This document shows, in pieces, positions 8,011 through 22,936 of a stretch of DNA of 32,631 nucleotides. Location: NCBI GenBank assembly GCA_947305705.1, contig CAMZEB010000010.1:1-32631 (forward strand), given 5' to 3'. Every line of letters begins with the position of its first letter. The first letter of the stretch is position 1. The stretch comes from an uncultured Candidatus Saccharibacteria bacterium (GTDB lineage Bacteria; Patescibacteriota; Saccharimonadia; Saccharimonadales; Saccharimonadaceae). Under the pieces are notes generated by a model. The model did not search any database, was not told the DNA's origin, and saw nothing but the letters and a program-made list of their open reading frames with translations. The position numbers were made by a program, and so were the translations under genes.

Positions 8011-11000
8011 TTAATTCCCTAGCACGCCCGGCCAAAGCGAACGGGCAGTAGTATCTGCAGCATAGAGAGTTGCGGAAGTGCTAATATCCCTAAATATCTG
8101 AGTAGTGTTCGTAGAACTGCCAATTACGAACGTATTAGGAAGTGTCAAAGAAGTCAATGAAGTCATATACATAAACATATTGCCCATATTCGTCACCTTT
8201 GAAGTATCGAATGTACTAGGCAAAACCAGTGTAGTCATCTTCGTTTGAATAAACATCTGGAACATATTAGTTACATTTGAAGTATTAAAGTTGGATGGGA
8301 AAGTAATAGACGTTAAATTGGTCATATACGAGAACATGCTTTCCATATTAGTGACATTTGAGGTGTCAAATGTATCCGGCAGAACAAGATTAGCTACTTT
8401 GACATGACTAAACATCCAGCCCATATCCGTAACATTCGAAGTATCAAAACCACTAGAGAACGTAAGCGAAGTCAAAGACGACATATTACAGAACAAACTA
8501 TTCATATTAGTTACATTTGAAGTGTTAAAGTCGCTAGGGAGTGTAAGCGTGGTAAGAGACGACGTACCGCCAAACATCGAGCCCATATTTGTTACATTCG
8601 AAGTATCAAAACTATCCGAAAATGTGAGCGAAGTCAAAGACGACATATTACCAAACATATTGCCCATATTCGTCACCTTTGAAGTATCAAAGCCGTTCGG
8701 CAATGTAAGCGAAGTAAGAGAAGTCGCGCCCCAAAACATAGTATTCATATCTGTAACATTTGCGGTATTAAAACCACTCGAGAACGTAAGCGAGCTCAGA
8801 GATCCCATGTTATAGAACATGCCATTCATATCCGTAACATTTGAAGTATTGAAGTTAATCGGAAGCGTAAGTGATGTCAGAGACGACATACTTCCGAACA
8901 TTGAGCTCATATCCGTAACATTCGAAGTATTGAAACTGCTCGGAAGCGTAAGCGAAGATAATGAAGACACTCCATAAAACATCCTCTTCATGCTTGTCAC
9001 ACTAGAAGTATTAAAACTGCTTGGAAGCGTAAGTGAAGTCAATGAAGACATTTCATTAAACATTTCAGTCATGCTCGTCACCTTCGAAGTATCGAATGCA
9101 TCTGGAAGCGTAAGCGAAGTTAATGAAGATAGCCTGCTGAACATACTTGGCATCCACGTCACATTCGAAGTGTCAAATGTCGAAGGAAGAGACAGTGAGG
9201 TTAGATTATTTAATCCACCAAACATACTGCCCATATCTACGACATTCGAAGTATCAAAACTTTCCGGAAGAGTTAGTGATGTCAACGAAGAAGATACGCC
9301 CGAATATATATAGAACATAGCACCCATACTTGTCACCTTCGAAGTATTAAAACTAGACGACAAAGTTAGCGAAGACAATGAATACATTTCACAGAACATC
9401 CAATCCATATTAGTCGCCAAAGACGTGTCTACTATAGTTGGGATATTTAGTGAAGTAAGTGCCGTCATATCCGTAAACATTTCCCCGGAATAGTCATTGG
9501 TATACATCTTTTCCGCCTCGGTATAGACATAATAATCATCACTAGTGGCTTTATAGGCATAAATAGGCACATATTTGTTAGTAGAAATATTAATCTTCGG
9601 TGCAGTTTCAACATCTATCGTATTCGGCAAAACATCGACGAATTGCAAATTTTTTATCGCATAATCCTTCGTATAGTATTCCACACTAGCATCATCAGCT
9701 AGATTATTCGCTAAGCGCTTTAGAGACGTATTAAAGTTATACCCCTCAACCATCATTGGGCCATACAAGCTTGGCCATAATGAATGAGCCGTCGCATCGG
9801 CAGCACGGAACAAAACCGCTGCGTAATAAATATTTTCAAACAACGAATTAACATTCGTAGAAGGATTAATCGAAAAAGTATTTGGCAAAAATAGTGCCTT
9901 TATTGAATAAAGCGAATAGAACATTGAGCTCATGTCCTCGACGTTCGAAACAACAAAGCTCGTCGGCAGATCAAGCACGTCTAGAACAGGAAGATTATAG
10001 AACATCTTGCTCATATCAGTCACACTTGAGGTATCGAAATCTTCAGAAAACTCTATCGTGTTTAACGCATACAAAGTGTTAAACATACCCTGCATATTTG
10101 TCACATTTGAAGTATCAAAAGAAGACAGATTAAGCGACTTCAGAGAATATAATTCGCTAAACATGTAGCTCATATTCTCAACTTTTTCAGTATTTAAATT
10201 AGTCAAATTAAGCGACTGGAGAGAATACACTTTTTCGAACATATAGCTCATATTCTCCGCATTTTGCGTATCCATATCTTCAAGGCCGTTTAGCGCCGAT
10301 AGGTCATACAGGCCACTAAACATATGGCTCATATTTATTACATTTGAAGTATCGAAACCATTCGGCAAAGTAAGAGTGTTCATCTGATAAATATTCTTGA
10401 ACATATTACTCATATCCGTCGCGCTTGAAGTATCAAACTCGTCTGAAAATGTTATAGATTTAGTGTTATATAGTTCACTGAACATACCGCTCATATTCTC
10501 AACGCTAGAAGTGTCGAAGTTGCTCGGTAATACAAGTGATTGCATTCCATATAAGTTACTAAACAAATAGCTCATATCCGTCACATTTGACGTATCGAAG
10601 TAGGCTAAGAAATCAAGCGAACTTAAGCTATACATCCTATCGATCATATGGCTCATATTCTGCAAATTCGAAGTATCTATATCTTCCGGAATAACCAAAT
10701 TCGCAACGCTATTTATGTCATAGAACATATAGCTCATATCCGTCACATTTGAGGTATCAAAATAATCCGGTATCGTTAACGAACTAACTGGAATACCGCT
10801 GAACAGATACGAAGAATCTGCATTCGCAACTATTGTACTAGCTTCCGTATAAATGGCATAGCCATGCTCTGCGACTTTATAGATATAAATCGGTTCCGAA
10901 TCTTCTTCTGCTAAATTTGCCTTAGGAGTCGTCTCATCAACTTCTTCTGGCAATTCACTCACGAATTCTAATGTTCTTATCTCGCTATCGTGGTAATTAT

Positions 11001-11721
11001 ATGGTCGCTCGTCTTCGTTCGCCAATGTCTTCATCGCAGCGTTTACACTTTTACCTGATCTAAGCGATGCAGTCATCTTTACTTCCCACTGCGCATATAG
11101 CGTCACTTCCCCACCAATCGTGAATGAAGTAGTTTCTCCATCAGTATAGGAAGTACCAGTACCATCAGCCTTCGTGTTCCAGCCATCAAACGAATAGCCA
11201 GTATAAGTAAATGTATTGCTCGCCAATGTAACATTTGTATTCAAGTCGATATTGCCTTGATCGGCAATTGAACCAATACCGCCATTAGCATCGTATTTAA
11301 TACGAACTTTAGAAGCACCAATGATACTACTGAATGAACCGTAGTTATTGATGAACTTATTAACTAGCGAACTATAAGCAAACGTTACCTTGTTATTAGT
11401 CGTGTCTACTTCATAGCTCATTCCACTTATACCCATTGGGTTGTTCATGGTAACAGTATTGTCGCCACCGGTAGCTAGAGTGATATTTTTACAAGTCTCA
11501 GTTTCAAAATCGTCAAAGACTAATTGGGTATCGAAGCCTGTACCGCTCACCGTAGCAACAAAGCTTGAACCGGCATAGCTTGTAGCCGATACACAGATAT
11601 TCCAATTGCCATCAGAAATAGTAGCCGTATTGCCAGAAGTAGCATAGGTATTACTTCCACCCAGTAGGCCTGCAATGATTCCAGAAATTACGGCAAACAC
11701 CGCAAATATCTTCTTTTGCAT
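8011..11721 (-). CDS. Giant secreted BspA-like protein with two DUF285 repeat arrays
   Basis: A 1236-aa surface protein. A signal peptide (MQKKIFAVFAVISGIIAGLLG) comes first, then a beta-rich domain, then one Listeria-Bacteroides (Flg_new/InlB B-type) repeat around YDANGGIGSI and TLYAQW. Two parallel modules follow. Each has a cap of about 90 aa (AMKTLANE... / SLKRLANN..., both with PIYxYK and YTEA), then a run of 27-aa DUF285 repeats of the form FDTSNVTDMSxMFxxxxSLxSLTLP, then a closing AADxTAxSLWP. I count 12 repeats in the first array and 17 in the second. DUF285/BspA repeats form leucine-rich-like solenoids in adhesins that bind host surfaces. There is no LPXTG or C-terminal membrane anchor, so attachment is unclear. 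An upstream TTG start is possible; I prefer ATG at 11721. Confidence 0.92.
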   Translation of the reverse strand: MQKKIFAVFAVISGIIAGLLGGSNTYATSGNTATISDGNWNICVSATSYAGSSFVATVSGTGFDTQLVFDDFETETCKNITLATGGDNTVTMNNPMGISGMSYEVDTTNNKVTFAYSSLVNKFINNYGSFSSIIGASKVRIKYDANGGIGSIADQGNIDLNTNVTLASNTFTYTGYSFDGWNTKADGTGTSYTDGETTSFTIGGEVTLYAQWEVKMTASLRSGKSVNAAMKTLANEDERPYNYHDSEIRTLEFVSELPEEVDETTPKANLAEEDSEPIYIYKVAEHGYAIYTEASTIVANADSSYLFSGIPVSSLTIPDYFDTSNVTDMSYMFYDINSVANLVIPEDIDTSNLQNMSHMIDRMYSLSSLDFLAYFDTSNVTDMSYLFSNLYGMQSLVLPSNFDTSSVENMSGMFSELYNTKSITFSDEFDTSSATDMSNMFKNIYQMNTLTLPNGFDTSNVINMSHMFSGLYDLSALNGLEDMDTQNAENMSYMFEKVYSLQSLNLTNLNTEKVENMSYMFSELYSLKSLNLSSFDTSNVTNMQGMFNTLYALNTIEFSEDFDTSSVTDMSKMFYNLPVLDVLDLPTSFVVSNVEDMSSMFYSLYSIKALFLPNTFSINPSTNVNSLFENIYYAAVLFRAADATAHSLWPSLYGPMMVEGYNFNTSLKRLANNLADDASVEYYTKDYAIKNLQFVDVLPNTIDVETAPKINISTNKYVPIYAYKATSDDYYVYTEAEKMYTNDYSGEMFTDMTALTSLNIPTIVDTSLATNMDWMFCEMYSLSSLTLSSSFNTSKVTSMGAMFYIYSGVSSSLTSLTLPESFDTSNVVDMGSMFGGLNNLTSLSLPSTFDTSNVTWMPSMFSRLSSLTSLTLPDAFDTSKVTSMTEMFNEMSSLTSLTLPSSFNTSSVTSMKRMFYGVSSLSSLTLPSSFNTSNVTDMSSMFGSMSSLTSLTLPINFNTSNVTDMNGMFYNMGSLSSLTFSSGFNTANVTDMNTMFWGATSLTSLTLPNGFDTSKVTNMGNMFGNMSSLTSLTFSDSFDTSNVTNMGSMFGGTSSLTTLTLPSDFNTSNVTNMNSLFCNMSSLTSLTFSSGFDTSNVTDMGWMFSHVKVANLVLPDTFDTSNVTNMESMFSYMTNLTSITFPSNFNTSNVTNMFQMFIQTKMTTLVLPSTFDTSKVTNMGNMFMYMTSLTSLTLPNTFVIGSSTNTTQIFRDISTSATLYAADTTARSLWPGVLGN
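8014..9432 (-). repeat. Second DUF285 array, about 17 units of 81 bp
   Basis: Coding tandem repeats with an 81-bp (27-aa) period. The phase can be followed in GAAGTAT at 8843 and 8924. Units are more alike here than in the first array (SSLTSLTLP recurs in most). One unit carries a 4-residue insertion (YIYSGVSSS) and two units lack one residue. The last unit degenerates into the SLWP closing segment. Confidence 0.9.
9772..10761 (-). repeat. First DUF285 array, about 12 units of 78-81 bp
   Basis: Coding tandem repeats of the same family as the second array but more diverged, with MSYMF or MSHMF cores and Leu/Tyr turns (NLYGMQSL, ELYSLKSL). Two units are 26 aa long. The array ends in LFRAADATAHSLWP, parallel to the end of the second array. 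Confidence 0.88.
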
Positions 11722-11772
11722 TTGTTTCTCTTGTTGCAAATGTGTTTATCTTTATTTCGACTACTTTTTATT

Positions 11773-12307: not shown

Positions 12308-13666
12308 TTATTTTTTCGTCTTATCAAGACTTTTTTCGATCTTCATAAGATCTTTTTGACTGCGGTACCAGTAGACACCGCCAGTTGCGATACAAACTAC
12401 GGCAACAATTGCGAGTGCGATTTCGCCTGGACCAGTCTTTGGAAGTTCTGGTTCATTTGGCGTTTCTGGTTCTTCAGGAGTACAAATCGGATTATTTGGA
12501 CTCTCCTTACAGATGCAATCCTTGTCGTTCTCGTCACAGCCTTTATCTGGCTCGTCCGTACATTCGTTTGTAGAAACGTAAATCGTAGAGCTATCGTTAA
12601 TCTCACCAGCATCGTGGTCTACATAGATAGTGTTTTTGAACGCTTTCTTCGTGCCACATTTGATGCCATCGACAACATTATTATTCAACTTAACTTGATA
12701 AGTAATCGTTGCAGTAGTTCCCTTACCGTAAAGACCAGTATTGAAACCATTCGCGCCGATGATATCTTTCATCGTTAAGCCATTTGGATTGGCCGCATTT
12801 ACAAGCTTCGTAGTGCCAGCGACTAGCGCCACACCTTCTGGTAGCTTATCGTGAAAGGTGACATTCGTTAAATCAGTCGTACCAGTGTTGGTAAATACTA
12901 CTTTGTAGGTAAGCGTATCACCAGGCTTAGCATCAACCGACTCAGAGAAGTTGGCACCATCTTTCGAAACCGTCTTCTCGACTTTCGCGCCAACTTGCTC
13001 AGCACGAATGTTATAGACGATATGGCCAGAATATTCCTCACAACCAGGTAGAATACCAGAGAGCTTATTATAGCCAATTGCGACACCATTTTCCATAAGA
13101 TTAGATGGTAAAGTTGTGCCGTTTAGCGCACCCTGATTGTAAATCTTCGCTGAACCTTGAACGTATTTCAAGATGACATCCGCAGAAGAATCAGTCGTAA
13201 AATACGCATTATCCCATACCTCGAGTGGATCCGCATTCGAAGACGAAATAACACCAGTAACCTTAGAAGATTTAGATGAATTAATCGTCCAAGTAGAAAG
13301 GCCGGATTTAACATACACATCGCGCGCATAACCAGAAGCATCAGCATTCATACTAGTCTTTGCGTTATTGTGATAAAAAATCCACACTTGGTATTCCTTA
13401 CCAGGAACAACCTTTACGGAATCGCTAAGAGCGTTTCCAGAGCCAACCTCGCCTACGCGGACAAAGTTGCGTTCATCACCAACAACATTGTTGTCAGTGA
13501 TAGAGTTGAAAGTAACCTTGTCGGCTGGGTTGTTCATCGTGTAAGTCGTACGTTCCGGACCCCAGGCAGAGGCCGAAGCGACTGGCACGATCACTGATAC
13601 CGCCGCAGCGACGAGACCAGCTACCGTCAATCTCCGTTTAAATTTGATATTTGTTTGTTTTAGCAT
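12308..13666 (-). CDS. LPKTG-anchored cell-wall surface protein with DUF11 domain
   Basis: A 452-aa secreted protein. An Arg/Lys-rich start and hydrophobic stretch end at ASASA before WGPERTT, a signal-peptidase I site near residue 34. Residues 40-210 form an unrecognised beta-rich domain. Residues 225-350 are a DUF11-like (isopeptide/Ig-like) domain (KPGDTLTYKVVFTNTGTTDL, then VTFHDKLPEGV). A short Cys-rich stalk (five Cys in the 28 residues beginning ECTDEP) and a Pro/Glu linker lead to the sortase signal LPKTG at 408-412, a hydrophobic helix (IALAIVAVVCIATGGVYW) and a basic tail. A sortase would link it to the cell wall; none is encoded here. AAGGAG precedes the ATG. It starts 35 nt after the gene at 13702-15696, probably in one operon with it. 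Confidence 0.9.
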   Translation of the reverse strand: MLKQTNIKFKRRLTVAGLVAAAVSVIVPVASASAWGPERTTYTMNNPADKVTFNSITDNNVVGDERNFVRVGEVGSGNALSDSVKVVPGKEYQVWIFYHNNAKTSMNADASGYARDVYVKSGLSTWTINSSKSSKVTGVISSSNADPLEVWDNAYFTTDSSADVILKYVQGSAKIYNQGALNGTTLPSNLMENGVAIGYNKLSGILPGCEEYSGHIVYNIRAEQVGAKVEKTVSKDGANFSESVDAKPGDTLTYKVVFTNTGTTDLTNVTFHDKLPEGVALVAGTTKLVNAANPNGLTMKDIIGANGFNTGLYGKGTTATITYQVKLNNNVVDGIKCGTKKAFKNTIYVDHDAGEINDSSTIYVSTNECTDEPDKGCDENDKDCICKESPNNPICTPEEPETPNEPELPKTGPGEIALAIVAVVCIATGGVYWYRSQKDLMKIEKSLDKTKK

Positions 13667-19621: not shown

Positions 19622-19894
19622 TTACTGATTCATCAAATAGTAGTTCACGTCATCGATTCGTGGCAGGCTCGGGTTCATCCCCCGCCATTCTTGGAGCAAT
19701 TTTCCTTCATCGTCGAATGCTAAAATTGTCGGGTATTCTACTACGTCATAAGTCCGGCATATACTCTCACCGTCTGGCGAATCCGGGCTAAAGCTTTCCG
19801 GCGCCTTGCCAGTCCTGTGCTCAAAATCTCTCAGCCACTCAATGACTGTTCGTGCGTAATCCGATTCTTCACGCCAAATAATTACCACCCGCAT
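19622..19894 (-). CDS. Thioredoxin-fold protein lacking the CXXC motif
   Basis: A 90-aa protein. VVIIWREESDYARTVIEWLRDF matches strand one and helix one of a thioredoxin fold, and VVEYPTILAFDDEGKLLQEW matches the cis-Pro loop and the following beta hairpin. At the place where CXXC should be, it reads WREESDY. Only one Cys (in SICRTYDV) is present, so it cannot be a normal dithiol oxidoreductase. It may be a structural or binding variant, or use the single Cys in mixed disulfides. It follows nrdR with 5 nt between and its AAGGAG lies inside the end of nrdR, so the two are co-translated. A link to ribonucleotide reductase redox supply is tempting but unproven. Confidence 0.75.
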   Translation of the reverse strand: MRVVIIWREESDYARTVIEWLRDFEHRTGKAPESFSPDSPDGESICRTYDVVEYPTILAFDDEGKLLQEWRGMNPSLPRIDDVNYYLMNQ

Positions 19895-19899
19895 ATTTT

Positions 19900-20373
19900 T
19901 TACTCCTTTTTTGCTGCTTTCTTTTTCATTCGCTCTCGCTGTTCAGCGATACTGCGTTCCAAATCATCAAGTGATTTAAATTCCTTAAAGACACTCGCGA
20001 AGCGTACATACGCCATCTCATTCGTATCGGCAAGCACCTCTAGTATCGTCTCACCAATCAGGCTCGAAGGAACCTCATCCTTGCCCGCATCATAAATACG
20101 CTCCTCGACAGAGTCCACCACATATTGCACATCAAGGTCGCTATTAAAATACTTCCCGACCGAGTTGCGCACCGCCTTCATCAGCTTATCTCTATCAAAA
20201 GCCTCGCGCGCACCAGATCGCTTGCGCACCATCATTCCTGGGCGCTCAATCCGTTCGTAAGTAGTGAAACGATGCTTACCATCAAGAGACACTCGTCTCC
20301 TTCGTATCATCGTGCCGTCTTGCGACTCACGACTCTCAATAACTTTGCTTTCGCCAATTTTGAGATGGCTCAT
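19900..20373 (-). CDS. nrdR: NrdR-like transcriptional regulator without its zinc ribbon cysteines
   Basis: A 157-aa protein, normal NrdR length. NrdR represses ribonucleotide reductase genes when its ATP-cone senses dATP/ATP. Seen here: SKVIESR, IRRRRVSLDGKHRFTTYERIE (the DNA-binding ribbon region), the ATP-cone VRKRSGAREAFDRDKLMKAV, and VPSSLIGETILEVLADTNEMAYVRFASV. Normal NrdR starts with CPxC and has a second CxxC after RRRR. Here the start reads MSHLKIGES and the second pair reads S-L-D-G. The whole protein has no cysteine. AAGGAGG 6 nt before the ATG fixes the start, so no zinc ribbon is hidden upstream. DNA binding must be zinc-independent, rely on other ligands, or be lost. It lies 11 nt after ftsZ. 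Confidence 0.92.
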   Translation of the reverse strand: MSHLKIGESKVIESRESQDGTMIRRRRVSLDGKHRFTTYERIERPGMMVRKRSGAREAFDRDKLMKAVRNSVGKYFNSDLDVQYVVDSVEERIYDAGKDEVPSSLIGETILEVLADTNEMAYVRFASVFKEFKSLDDLERSIAEQRERMKKKAAKKE

Positions 20374-20384
20374 CCCGCCCCTCC

Positions 20385-21620
20385 TTAATCTTTATTCTTT
20401 TTGCGGCGCCTCAAGATAGCTGGAATATCACTGTCATCATCTTCGTCATCGTTACGAATCTGATCCCACATATTAACATTGCTGTCGTTTGTAAACGAAG
20501 CAGAAGCTGACGTTTCTGGCTGAATCGGAGCATTATCGACTGGCGCCATATTCTGAACAGGGTCAGCCGCCGCCTGAGTTGGCGCAGCTGCAGTATCATT
20601 CGTTGAAGAATAGCTACTCGTGAAGCTGTCCTGATTTGCGCGTGGGTCATCACCATAGTATTGCGAATCAAATCCAGTTGCCACGACAGTAATGATAATC
20701 TCGTCTTCAAGCTCTGGGCGAATCGATGCACCCCAAATAATGTTTGCATCTGGAGCAACACTTGCTGTAATCAAATCAGCTGCTTCCTGAATCTCTGCCA
20801 TCGTGACATCATAACCACCGACAACCGAAATAAGTACGCCGCGTGCGCCATCAATCGACACCTCAATAAGTGGAGATTCGATCGCCTGTTGCGCTGCAAT
20901 CGTTGCACGGTTTTCACCAGAAGCCGTACCGATACCCATCAATGCTGAACCAGCATCTTTCATAATCGTCTTAACATCAGCAAAGTCCAAGTTGATCAAA
21001 GCATTCTCGTCTGTGATGAGCTCAGAAATACCCTGAACACCCTGACGAAGCACATCATCAGCAATGCGGAAAGTCTCGTTTAGTGGAGTACGAGCATCAA
21101 TCGTCTGGAGAAGGCGATCGTTAGGAATTGTAATAAGTGCATCGACATTGCGTGCAAAATGCTCAATTGCCCAATCAGCATTCGCTTTGCGCTTGACGCC
21201 TTCAAACGAGAACGGTTTCGTAACGACACCGACCGTCAAAATGTCTTGCTTGCGTGCCTCTTCGGCAACAATATAACTTGCACCAGAACCAGTACCACCA
21301 CCAGCACCGAAGGTCACAAAGCACATATCGGCACCCGCCAAAGCGTTGCGAATATCTTCACGACTCTCCTCGGCAGCACGTTCGCCAACCGTCGGATCAG
21401 CACCCGCACCGAGACCATTGGTTGTCTCGTGGCCAAGATGGACCTTTACGTCCGCCTTTGAATTGTGCAAAGCTTGCGCATCGGTGTTCATCGCGATAAA
21501 TTCGACGCCAGTCAAACCAGCCTCGCGCATACGGTTAACAGCAGAACCGCCGGCGCCGCCGACACCAATAACTTTGATACTAGCTGTACTCTCCACCTCG
21601 CTCGGTTTTAATTCGGGCAT
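20385..21620 (-). CDS. ftsZ: Cell division protein FtsZ
   Basis: A 411-aa tubulin-like GTPase that polymerises into the division ring. It shows [17 protein letters not shown], the tubulin signature in [12 protein letters not shown], the T7 loop region [22 protein letters not shown], and the S7-S9 strands. A Thr/Ala/Gln-rich linker of about 70 residues leads to the conserved C-terminal peptide [14 protein letters not shown] that binds FtsA. The start is ATG at 21620, behind GGAGG; the frame also opens at a GTG four codons earlier, inside the Shine-Dalgarno region. It has its own promoter in the 74-nt gap after ftsA. The order ftsA-ftsZ is the normal bacterial one. Confidence 0.99.
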
Positions 21621-21653
21621 ATGCTCCTCCACTTTTCAAAAATACTTACCTAG

Positions 21654-21694: not shown

Positions 21695-22930
21695 TTATTT
21701 GAACAATTTGAAAATTCTAGAGAAGAAGTTGCCTTCTTTTTGCTTCTTTTGCTTCTTCGGCGCCTTCTTGTTGCCGCTAAATCCGTCGATATTTGAGCGC
21801 TCATTGTCGCCAAGCATCAAGCCAATCGCCGCCGCGTACTCAGGTTTTAGAATATCTTCACTCACGCCAATAATGCCGCTCGGCTTTGCGATACGCACTG
21901 CGAGCTCAACGTGCTTACGTACGAACAAATCAATATTGCGCAACTTCGCACCGCCGCCACAAAGCACCAAGCCTTCTGGCAAGCGACGATCATAACCTGC
22001 TCTCTTGAGCATATTGCGCACACCGTCAAAGATTTCTTCGAGACGAGCCTCTACAACCTCTTCGACATCTTTGCGCTTAAAGCGGAATTCCTCACGCCCT
22101 CGCTTAACTACAATATCTCTGTCGCTATCTTCTTTCGTGGCCGAAGCAAAGCGCATCTTGATTTCCTCTGCCACATCAGGGATCGTCGCAAGCACCGTCG
22201 CGAGATCTTTCGTCACGTCATTGCTGCCAATTGGCACCACGCCGACAAACTGAAGTTCGCCTTCGTCAAAAATCGCAATACTCGTCGTCGCGCCGCCCAT
22301 ATCAACAACACCAACGCCGTTTTCGCGTTGCGCGCTATTCGTTACTGCTCTTGCCGCAGCAACTGCAGTCGGCTCGAACGGGCCGTGTGGCTCAATCGCC
22401 GCACTTTCACAAACCTTACGCAAATTCTCGCAGTCTGGCGTCAAAGCCGAAACAACATTCGCACGAAGCTCCAAACGAGCACCGTGCATACCGAGTGGCT
22501 CGTGAATTCCGCCCTGACCATCAAGAATATATTCATACGGCACCAACGCCAAAGTCTCACGGTTCGCTGGAATCTTGCCCGCAATCGCCGTATCAGCAAT
22601 ACGAACAATATCATCTTCGTTAATCTCGTGATCAGCAACACCAACCGCAATCATACCGTCAATCTTAACGCTGCCAATATGTGTACCGTTAATACCGACG
22701 TTTGCACGGTCAACTTTAATACCGCTCATCCCCTCAACTTTTGCAAGACACTCATCGATAGCCTTTGCTGGCGGGATTAACTCTTTTACAACACCGCGGC
22801 GCATTCCTTCCATCGGAACTTCACCGTAGCCAATAACTGATACTTCCTCCCCCTTTACAGTACCTAAAACTGTTCGCACAAAATTCGTGCCAACATCAAT
22901 CCCCACCGCAAAACGCGCTTTTTCTTCCAT
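21695..22930 (-). CDS. ftsA: Cell division protein FtsA
   Basis: A 411-aa actin-like protein that tethers FtsZ to the membrane and recruits later division proteins. It shows the phosphate-1 motif VGIDVGTNFVRTV, the 1C (SHS2) region with VDRANVGINGTHIGSV, the phosphate-2 motif VVDMGGATTSIAIF, and the adenosine motif GLVLCGGGAKLRNI. A basic linker precedes the C-terminal amphipathic membrane helix NFFSRIFKLFK. Two in-frame ATGs exist. I prefer the second (22930) because a TACAAT box ends 6 nt before it and the first ATG is flush with that box. No Shine-Dalgarno sequence is present. Confidence 0.97.
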   Translation of the reverse strand: MEEKARFAVGIDVGTNFVRTVLGTVKGEEVSVIGYGEVPMEGMRRGVVKELIPPAKAIDECLAKVEGMSGIKVDRANVGINGTHIGSVKIDGMIAVGVADHEINEDDIVRIADTAIAGKIPANRETLALVPYEYILDGQGGIHEPLGMHGARLELRANVVSALTPDCENLRKVCESAAIEPHGPFEPTAVAAARAVTNSAQRENGVGVVDMGGATTSIAIFDEGELQFVGVVPIGSNDVTKDLATVLATIPDVAEEIKMRFASATKEDSDRDIVVKRGREEFRFKRKDVEEVVEARLEEIFDGVRNMLKRAGYDRRLPEGLVLCGGGAKLRNIDLFVRKHVELAVRIAKPSGIIGVSEDILKPEYAAAIGLMLGDNERSNIDGFSGNKKAPKKQKKQKEGNFFSRIFKLFK

Positions 22931-22936
22931 AAGCAT

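Follow-up and report, generated by a model that had tools for sequence, protein, structure and literature searches.

Can an NrdR that has lost its whole zinc ribbon still recognize DNA? Published accounts describe NrdR as a zinc-ribbon protein, with CPxC and CxxC motifs in all bacteria aligned (PMC4898720), and regard zinc as belonging to the apparatus with which it binds DNA. The window analyzed here, a stretch of 32,631 nucleotides from an uncultured Candidatus Saccharibacteria bacterium, encodes an NrdR without any of the four zinc ligands (0/4 Cys), although the ribbon is one of the features by which described NrdR are defined. An earlier note, made from the letters alone, proposed a new DNA-binding mode, a pure nucleotide sensor or a decaying regulator. 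We consider it quite likely that the protein belongs to a Saccharibacteria clade whose NrdR, orthologous and functional, binds its boxes as other NrdR do, on a zinc-ribbon fold that has ceased to depend on metal. The novelty would apparently lie in a fold that no longer needs zinc, not in how DNA is read.

The nrdR gene and its neighborhood

The gene occupies positions 19900..20373 and encodes 157 amino acids, and its assignment rests on the open reading frame, family matches, tree and synteny. The coordinates in the earlier note were exact, but the gene lies on the minus strand, and an ORF check of the plus strand at 19900-20373 found no gene. The protein begins MSHLKIGESKVIESRESQDGTMIRRRRVSLDGKHRFTTYERIERPG and its translation contains no cysteine anywhere, so that the reported loss of all four ribbon cysteines was correct, as the alignment confirms. 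The description of a full-length NrdR was equally accurate: the RRRR and RFTTYE blocks are present (R26-29 in 47 of 47 aligned clade members), and an ATP-cone domain (PF03477, 1.7e-15) covers residues 47-133 (19975..20235, minus). The N-terminal domain, residues 1-44 (20242..20373, minus), matches Zn_ribbon_NrdR in Pfam at 2.1e-11, from profile position 10 onward and thus without the first CPxC. Against the NCBIfam equivalog TIGR00244 the protein scores 121.1 bits, below the cut-off of 124.65, with only positions 9-145 matched and the first 8 missing.

The start codon lies 11 bases past the stop codon of ftsZ (20385..21632, minus), behind a Shine-Dalgarno sequence, AAGGAGG (20380..20386, minus), which overlaps that stop codon and is kept in relatives. 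Read upstream in frame from the start, a stop is reached after only 6 codons, so that no ribbon can be hidden there, as the earlier note had concluded from the Shine-Dalgarno site; with ftsZ ending at this site, a frameshift is likewise ruled out. An ftsA-like gene, named by inspection of its translation, lies upstream of ftsZ (21695..22936, minus). Downstream of nrdR, a 90-amino acid ORF (19622-19894, minus) looks thioredoxin-like by eye and has no Pfam or NCBIfam match. Elsewhere in the window, inspection suggests a BspA/DUF285-like surface protein of 1242 amino acids with many FDTSNVTDMSYMF-type repeats (8011-11739, minus), and a protein (12308-13666, minus) that has a DUF11-like region and carries an LPKTG-like sorting motif and a membrane anchor at its C-terminus.

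The source genome (885 kb, 99.5% complete) has a single NrdR, and no second copy, normal or otherwise, was found in it. Fpg and PriA, both encoded in the window, and the C-terminus of NrdD in the same genome keep their Cys4 sites. A general loss of zinc proteins is thereby ruled out, and the loss is specific to NrdR rather than a sign of general zinc economy. Judged by its sequence, the window protein is best called a zinc-free, orthologous variant rather than NrdR in the standard sense, because it lacks the zinc ribbon, one of the features that define described NrdR.

Distribution and origin of the cysteine loss

NrdR matches were obtained in 43 of the 45 genomes of the genus, every one starting at profile position 7-10, and the ORF is intact in 43/45. 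All genus members that were read are cysteine-free and carry a near-invariant IGESKVIESRESQDGTMIRRRRVSLDGKHRFTTYERIERP. Sequencing error is excluded because the same N-terminus recurs in all of them, across many independent assemblies. The nrdR gene was not found in genus member G040 (96% complete; possibly an assembly gap), though boxes are present there.

At the family level, representatives of 56 genera were read, and 38 of these genera have a cysteine-free NrdR, whereas 18 keep CPxC/CxxC (Cys4), as do the outgroup proteins. The loss is thus common to the genus and to 38 genera, which refutes the error in a lone copy that the earlier note had wished to see checked against relatives. PF22811 scores are bimodal in a sample of 380 genomes of the phylum, with low scores confined to the family except for one genome (G522), whose NrdR has all four cysteines on reading. 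A cysteine-free NrdR elsewhere in the phylum was sought and rejected, since the weakest matches outside the family, G522 included, still carry the cysteines. The contig titles read Candidatus Saccharibacteria, mainly from ruminant and other animal guts.

In a tree of 87 NrdR sequences, the cysteine-free members all fall on one side of a branch (support 100/100), and the same split is recovered from the ATP-cone alone, with the N-terminal domain left out (98/94). The gene directly upstream is ftsZ in 76 of the 77 cysteine-free loci with enough flank, and also in most Cys4 loci of the family; since this synteny is common to both groups, they are orthologues. A phage origin was considered and rejected, as phage NrdR among the matches listed share less than 43% identity. 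By these trees, the cysteine loss is one old event common to the 38 genera.

A second, divergent NrdR-like protein (NrdR2) was also observed, for example at L266:1171-1626 and L279:1189-1626 (both minus) and in L273 and L267-L271. It has Cys4, WRRR and a weak or undetectable ATP-cone, and occurs in sampled relatives at the order and class level and in six genomes with a cysteine-free NrdR, but is absent from the source genome. In two of its loci that were checked (L266 and L279 are among its loci), the gene is convergent with a conserved large ORF.

Replacement of the zinc site and constraint on the DNA-facing domain

What took the place of the zinc site was read from an alignment of 47 cysteine-free clade members and 40 Cys4 members, in Streptomyces coelicolor numbering. 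The ribbon cysteines C3, C6, C31 and C34 are present in 40/40 Cys4 rows and all substituted in the 47 clade rows. C3 is replaced by variable residues and C6 mostly by Y, L, F or I, followed by I8 (45/47) and G9 (43/47); the first knuckle, before the first strand, is two residues shorter than in Cys4 NrdR. C31 has become T, S or A, and C34 is glycine in 45/47, following an aspartate (D33) in 47/47, while the residue at position 36 is dropped in half of the clade, giving a short S/T-P-D-G-x hairpin. Where Cys4 NrdR have CPxC, the clade has a hydrophobic segment of reduced length, x-[YLFI]-x-I-G, and where they have CxxC it has an S/T-x-D-G turn. In the window protein these are residues 1-7 (MSHLKIG; 20353..20373, minus) and residues 29-34 (SLDGKH; 20272..20289, minus). 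The pattern would fit the replacement of knuckles by turns, with a hydrophobic plug.

Alternatively, a metal might still be held by other ligands or between two subunits. The invariant Asp33 and Glu15 and the histidines at some positions within the genus could be taken in favor of this. However, no conserved set of Cys/His was found in the N-terminal domain across the 47 rows, no Cys or His position of the ribbon is conserved over the clade, the histidines at residues 3 and 34 of the window protein are variable, and position 15 is already a DNA contact in the S. coelicolor complex. We therefore regard a displaced metal site as very improbable.

In that complex, DNA is contacted by R12, D15, R17, R26-29 and R37 (PMC9110341). 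The equivalents of R17, R26-29 and R37 are present in 47/47 members of the cysteine-free clade; position 15 is glutamate in 47/47, as in all Cys4 members of the family, and position 12 is R or K. The nucleotide-contact residues are also retained, with the ATP-cone residues K50 and K62 in 47/47. S. coelicolor Y128, a residue that flips over when the nucleotide state changes, corresponds to F129 in the window protein, and Phe occurs in about half of the clade.

Within the genus, constraint on NrdR is strongest in the N-terminal domain: its pN/pS (residues 6-44) is 0.026, compared with 0.175 for the ATP-cone, although synonymous sites are near saturation (0.75-0.79) and only the contrast between the two parts is usable. 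Of its 39 codons 38 vary, but only 4 residues do. A gene decaying toward loss would be consistent with the lack of detectable NrdR in some family genomes, G099 among them, but hardly with this constraint, an intact ORF in nearly all genus genomes and a single old loss spread over 38 genera, and we consider decay extremely unlikely. A pure nucleotide sensor, in which DNA binding has been lost and the protein acts via its ATP-cone only, for example on another protein, could explain why all four ligands are gone, given that known NrdR build the DNA-binding domain with them (PMC12176259). Yet no residues of the protein are better conserved than those facing DNA, and boxes persist at the promoters of the ribonucleotide reductase (RNR) genes in a genome without another NrdR, which makes such a sensor highly improbable. 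Both of these suggestions of the earlier note are thus contradicted by the constraint on the N-terminal domain, the 47/47 contact residues and the retained boxes.

The fold predicted by AF2, which the earlier note had proposed to obtain, agrees with a retained DNA reader. A three-stranded sheet was predicted both from an alignment of all NrdR (mean pLDDT 86.5) and from cysteine-free rows only (mean pLDDT 81.3), with strands at residues 9-16, 22-29 and 35-41 of the window protein; over the first 10 residues pLDDT reaches only 65-69. The best structural matches of the predicted model are solved NrdR (7p37, 9fxk and 9fvr). Whole-chain rmsd by VIA-align and Foldseek is large (6-10 Å), probably from domain orientation, and no residue-level claim is drawn from it. 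AF2 tends to repeat family folds, and hence the prediction is weak evidence for metal independence.

NrdR boxes and comparison with known systems

NrdR boxes were sought upstream of RNR genes, as the earlier note had also suggested. The source genome has one RNR, class III nrdDG, and a profile search found no PF02867 RNR in it. For 55 RNR genes, the 330 bp ahead of each were scored against the published 16-bp NrdR-box consensus, with dinucleotide shuffles as the null. Three boxes lie in the nrdD promoter of the source genome: ACGCTATATCTAGCGT at -168, ACACTATATATAGCGT at -92 and, 33 bp downstream of the latter, ACACCAAATGTAGAGT at -59. A genome-wide scan placed every site with no more than one mismatch in the nrdD promoter. 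Other box-regulated genes in this genome were considered and rejected, since two-mismatch sites are no commoner than in a backward-pattern control. A third box before nrdD was recorded at G000:C1:86623-86638, and several relatives have a second upstream pair; some nrdD promoters with extra boxes may be bound by two NrdR tetramers.

A box pair at shuffle p<=0.01 is present in 47 of 49 RNR promoters of the cysteine-free clade, a set with 17/49 promoters outside the genus and including G040, a genome in which no nrdR gene was detected. The pair is weak in some class I promoters (p of 0.09 and 0.015 in two), and there is none at the nrdD of G099, in which NrdR was not detected. In two deep-branching genus members (G026 and G006; loci L280 and L281), class II nrdJ replaces class III nrdD and a box pair lies upstream of nrdJ. 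Known NrdR boxes are palindromic and paired, with conserved G-C pairs (PMC9110341, PMC12051234). The usual spacing in the clade, 33 bp, corresponds to a 17-bp spacer, within the 14-17 bp that bind experimentally (PMC12051234), and is also found in 13/15 Cys4 Patescibacteria. A new DNA-binding mode is therefore not favored, as contacts, boxes and spacing are those of Cys4 relatives.

A partner protein, for instance the Cys4 paralogue NrdR2, might have taken over box recognition, with the cysteine-free protein as an accessory subunit. NrdR2 is indeed found beside it in six genomes, but the source genome lacks it and none was seen in the genus, where boxes are nevertheless kept, and the cysteine-free NrdR retains its own DNA contacts. 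We judge such a division of labor very unlikely.

Taken together, we favor a metal-independent NrdR in whose N-terminal domain a tight turn and a hydrophobic core, instead of Zn2+, would hold the three-stranded sheet. The protein would form a nucleotide-controlled tetramer which, with both ATP and dATP, would occupy both boxes before nrdDG, at a distance of three helical turns from each other, and thereby repress the only RNR of the genome. As counterpoints, added zinc improves DNA binding by E. coli NrdR, and in Streptomyces the zinc region was reported to be crucial (PMC4898720). An unlikely but conceivable variant is that the zinc-less domain is only marginally stable alone and folds when two copies pair, either on the box or within the tetramer that nucleotides assemble; nucleotide state would then govern whether the DNA reader folds, besides where it is placed.

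In the literature searched, we found no mention of NrdR together with Saccharibacteria, Patescibacteria or the Candidate Phyla Radiation, and nothing on zinc-independent ribbons. Having dropped the metal ligands in one event and kept the boxes, the 38 genera form a natural set that makes the role of zinc in NrdR, be it fold stability or redox/zinc sensing, directly testable, and the clade would illustrate how a zinc ribbon can become metal-free. Annotation pipelines that demand the equivalog score should be used with caution.

The window protein shares with canonical NrdR (S. coelicolor 7p37/7p3f/7p3q; E. coli 9fxk/9fvr/9gex) the domain order, the RRRR and RFTTYE blocks, the DNA contacts, the ATP-cone and box pairs before RNR genes, and these are its best structural match. 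It differs in having neither CPxC/CxxC nor any cysteine, in a first knuckle two residues shorter and a D-G turn as the second, and in a score just below the NCBIfam equivalog cut-off. The Cys4 NrdR of sister Saccharibacteria genera (e.g., L034 in G092 and L048 in G047) belong to the same family and mostly occupy the same ftsZ-nrdR locus, with about 50% identity, but have the zinc ligands. A further parallel is provided by C-minus paralogues of zinc-ribbon ribosomal proteins, which keep fold and job after cysteine loss; these are usually induced to spare zinc, next to a C-plus copy. By contrast, the cysteine-free NrdR is the sole copy, in a genome where other zinc proteins keep their Cys4 sites.
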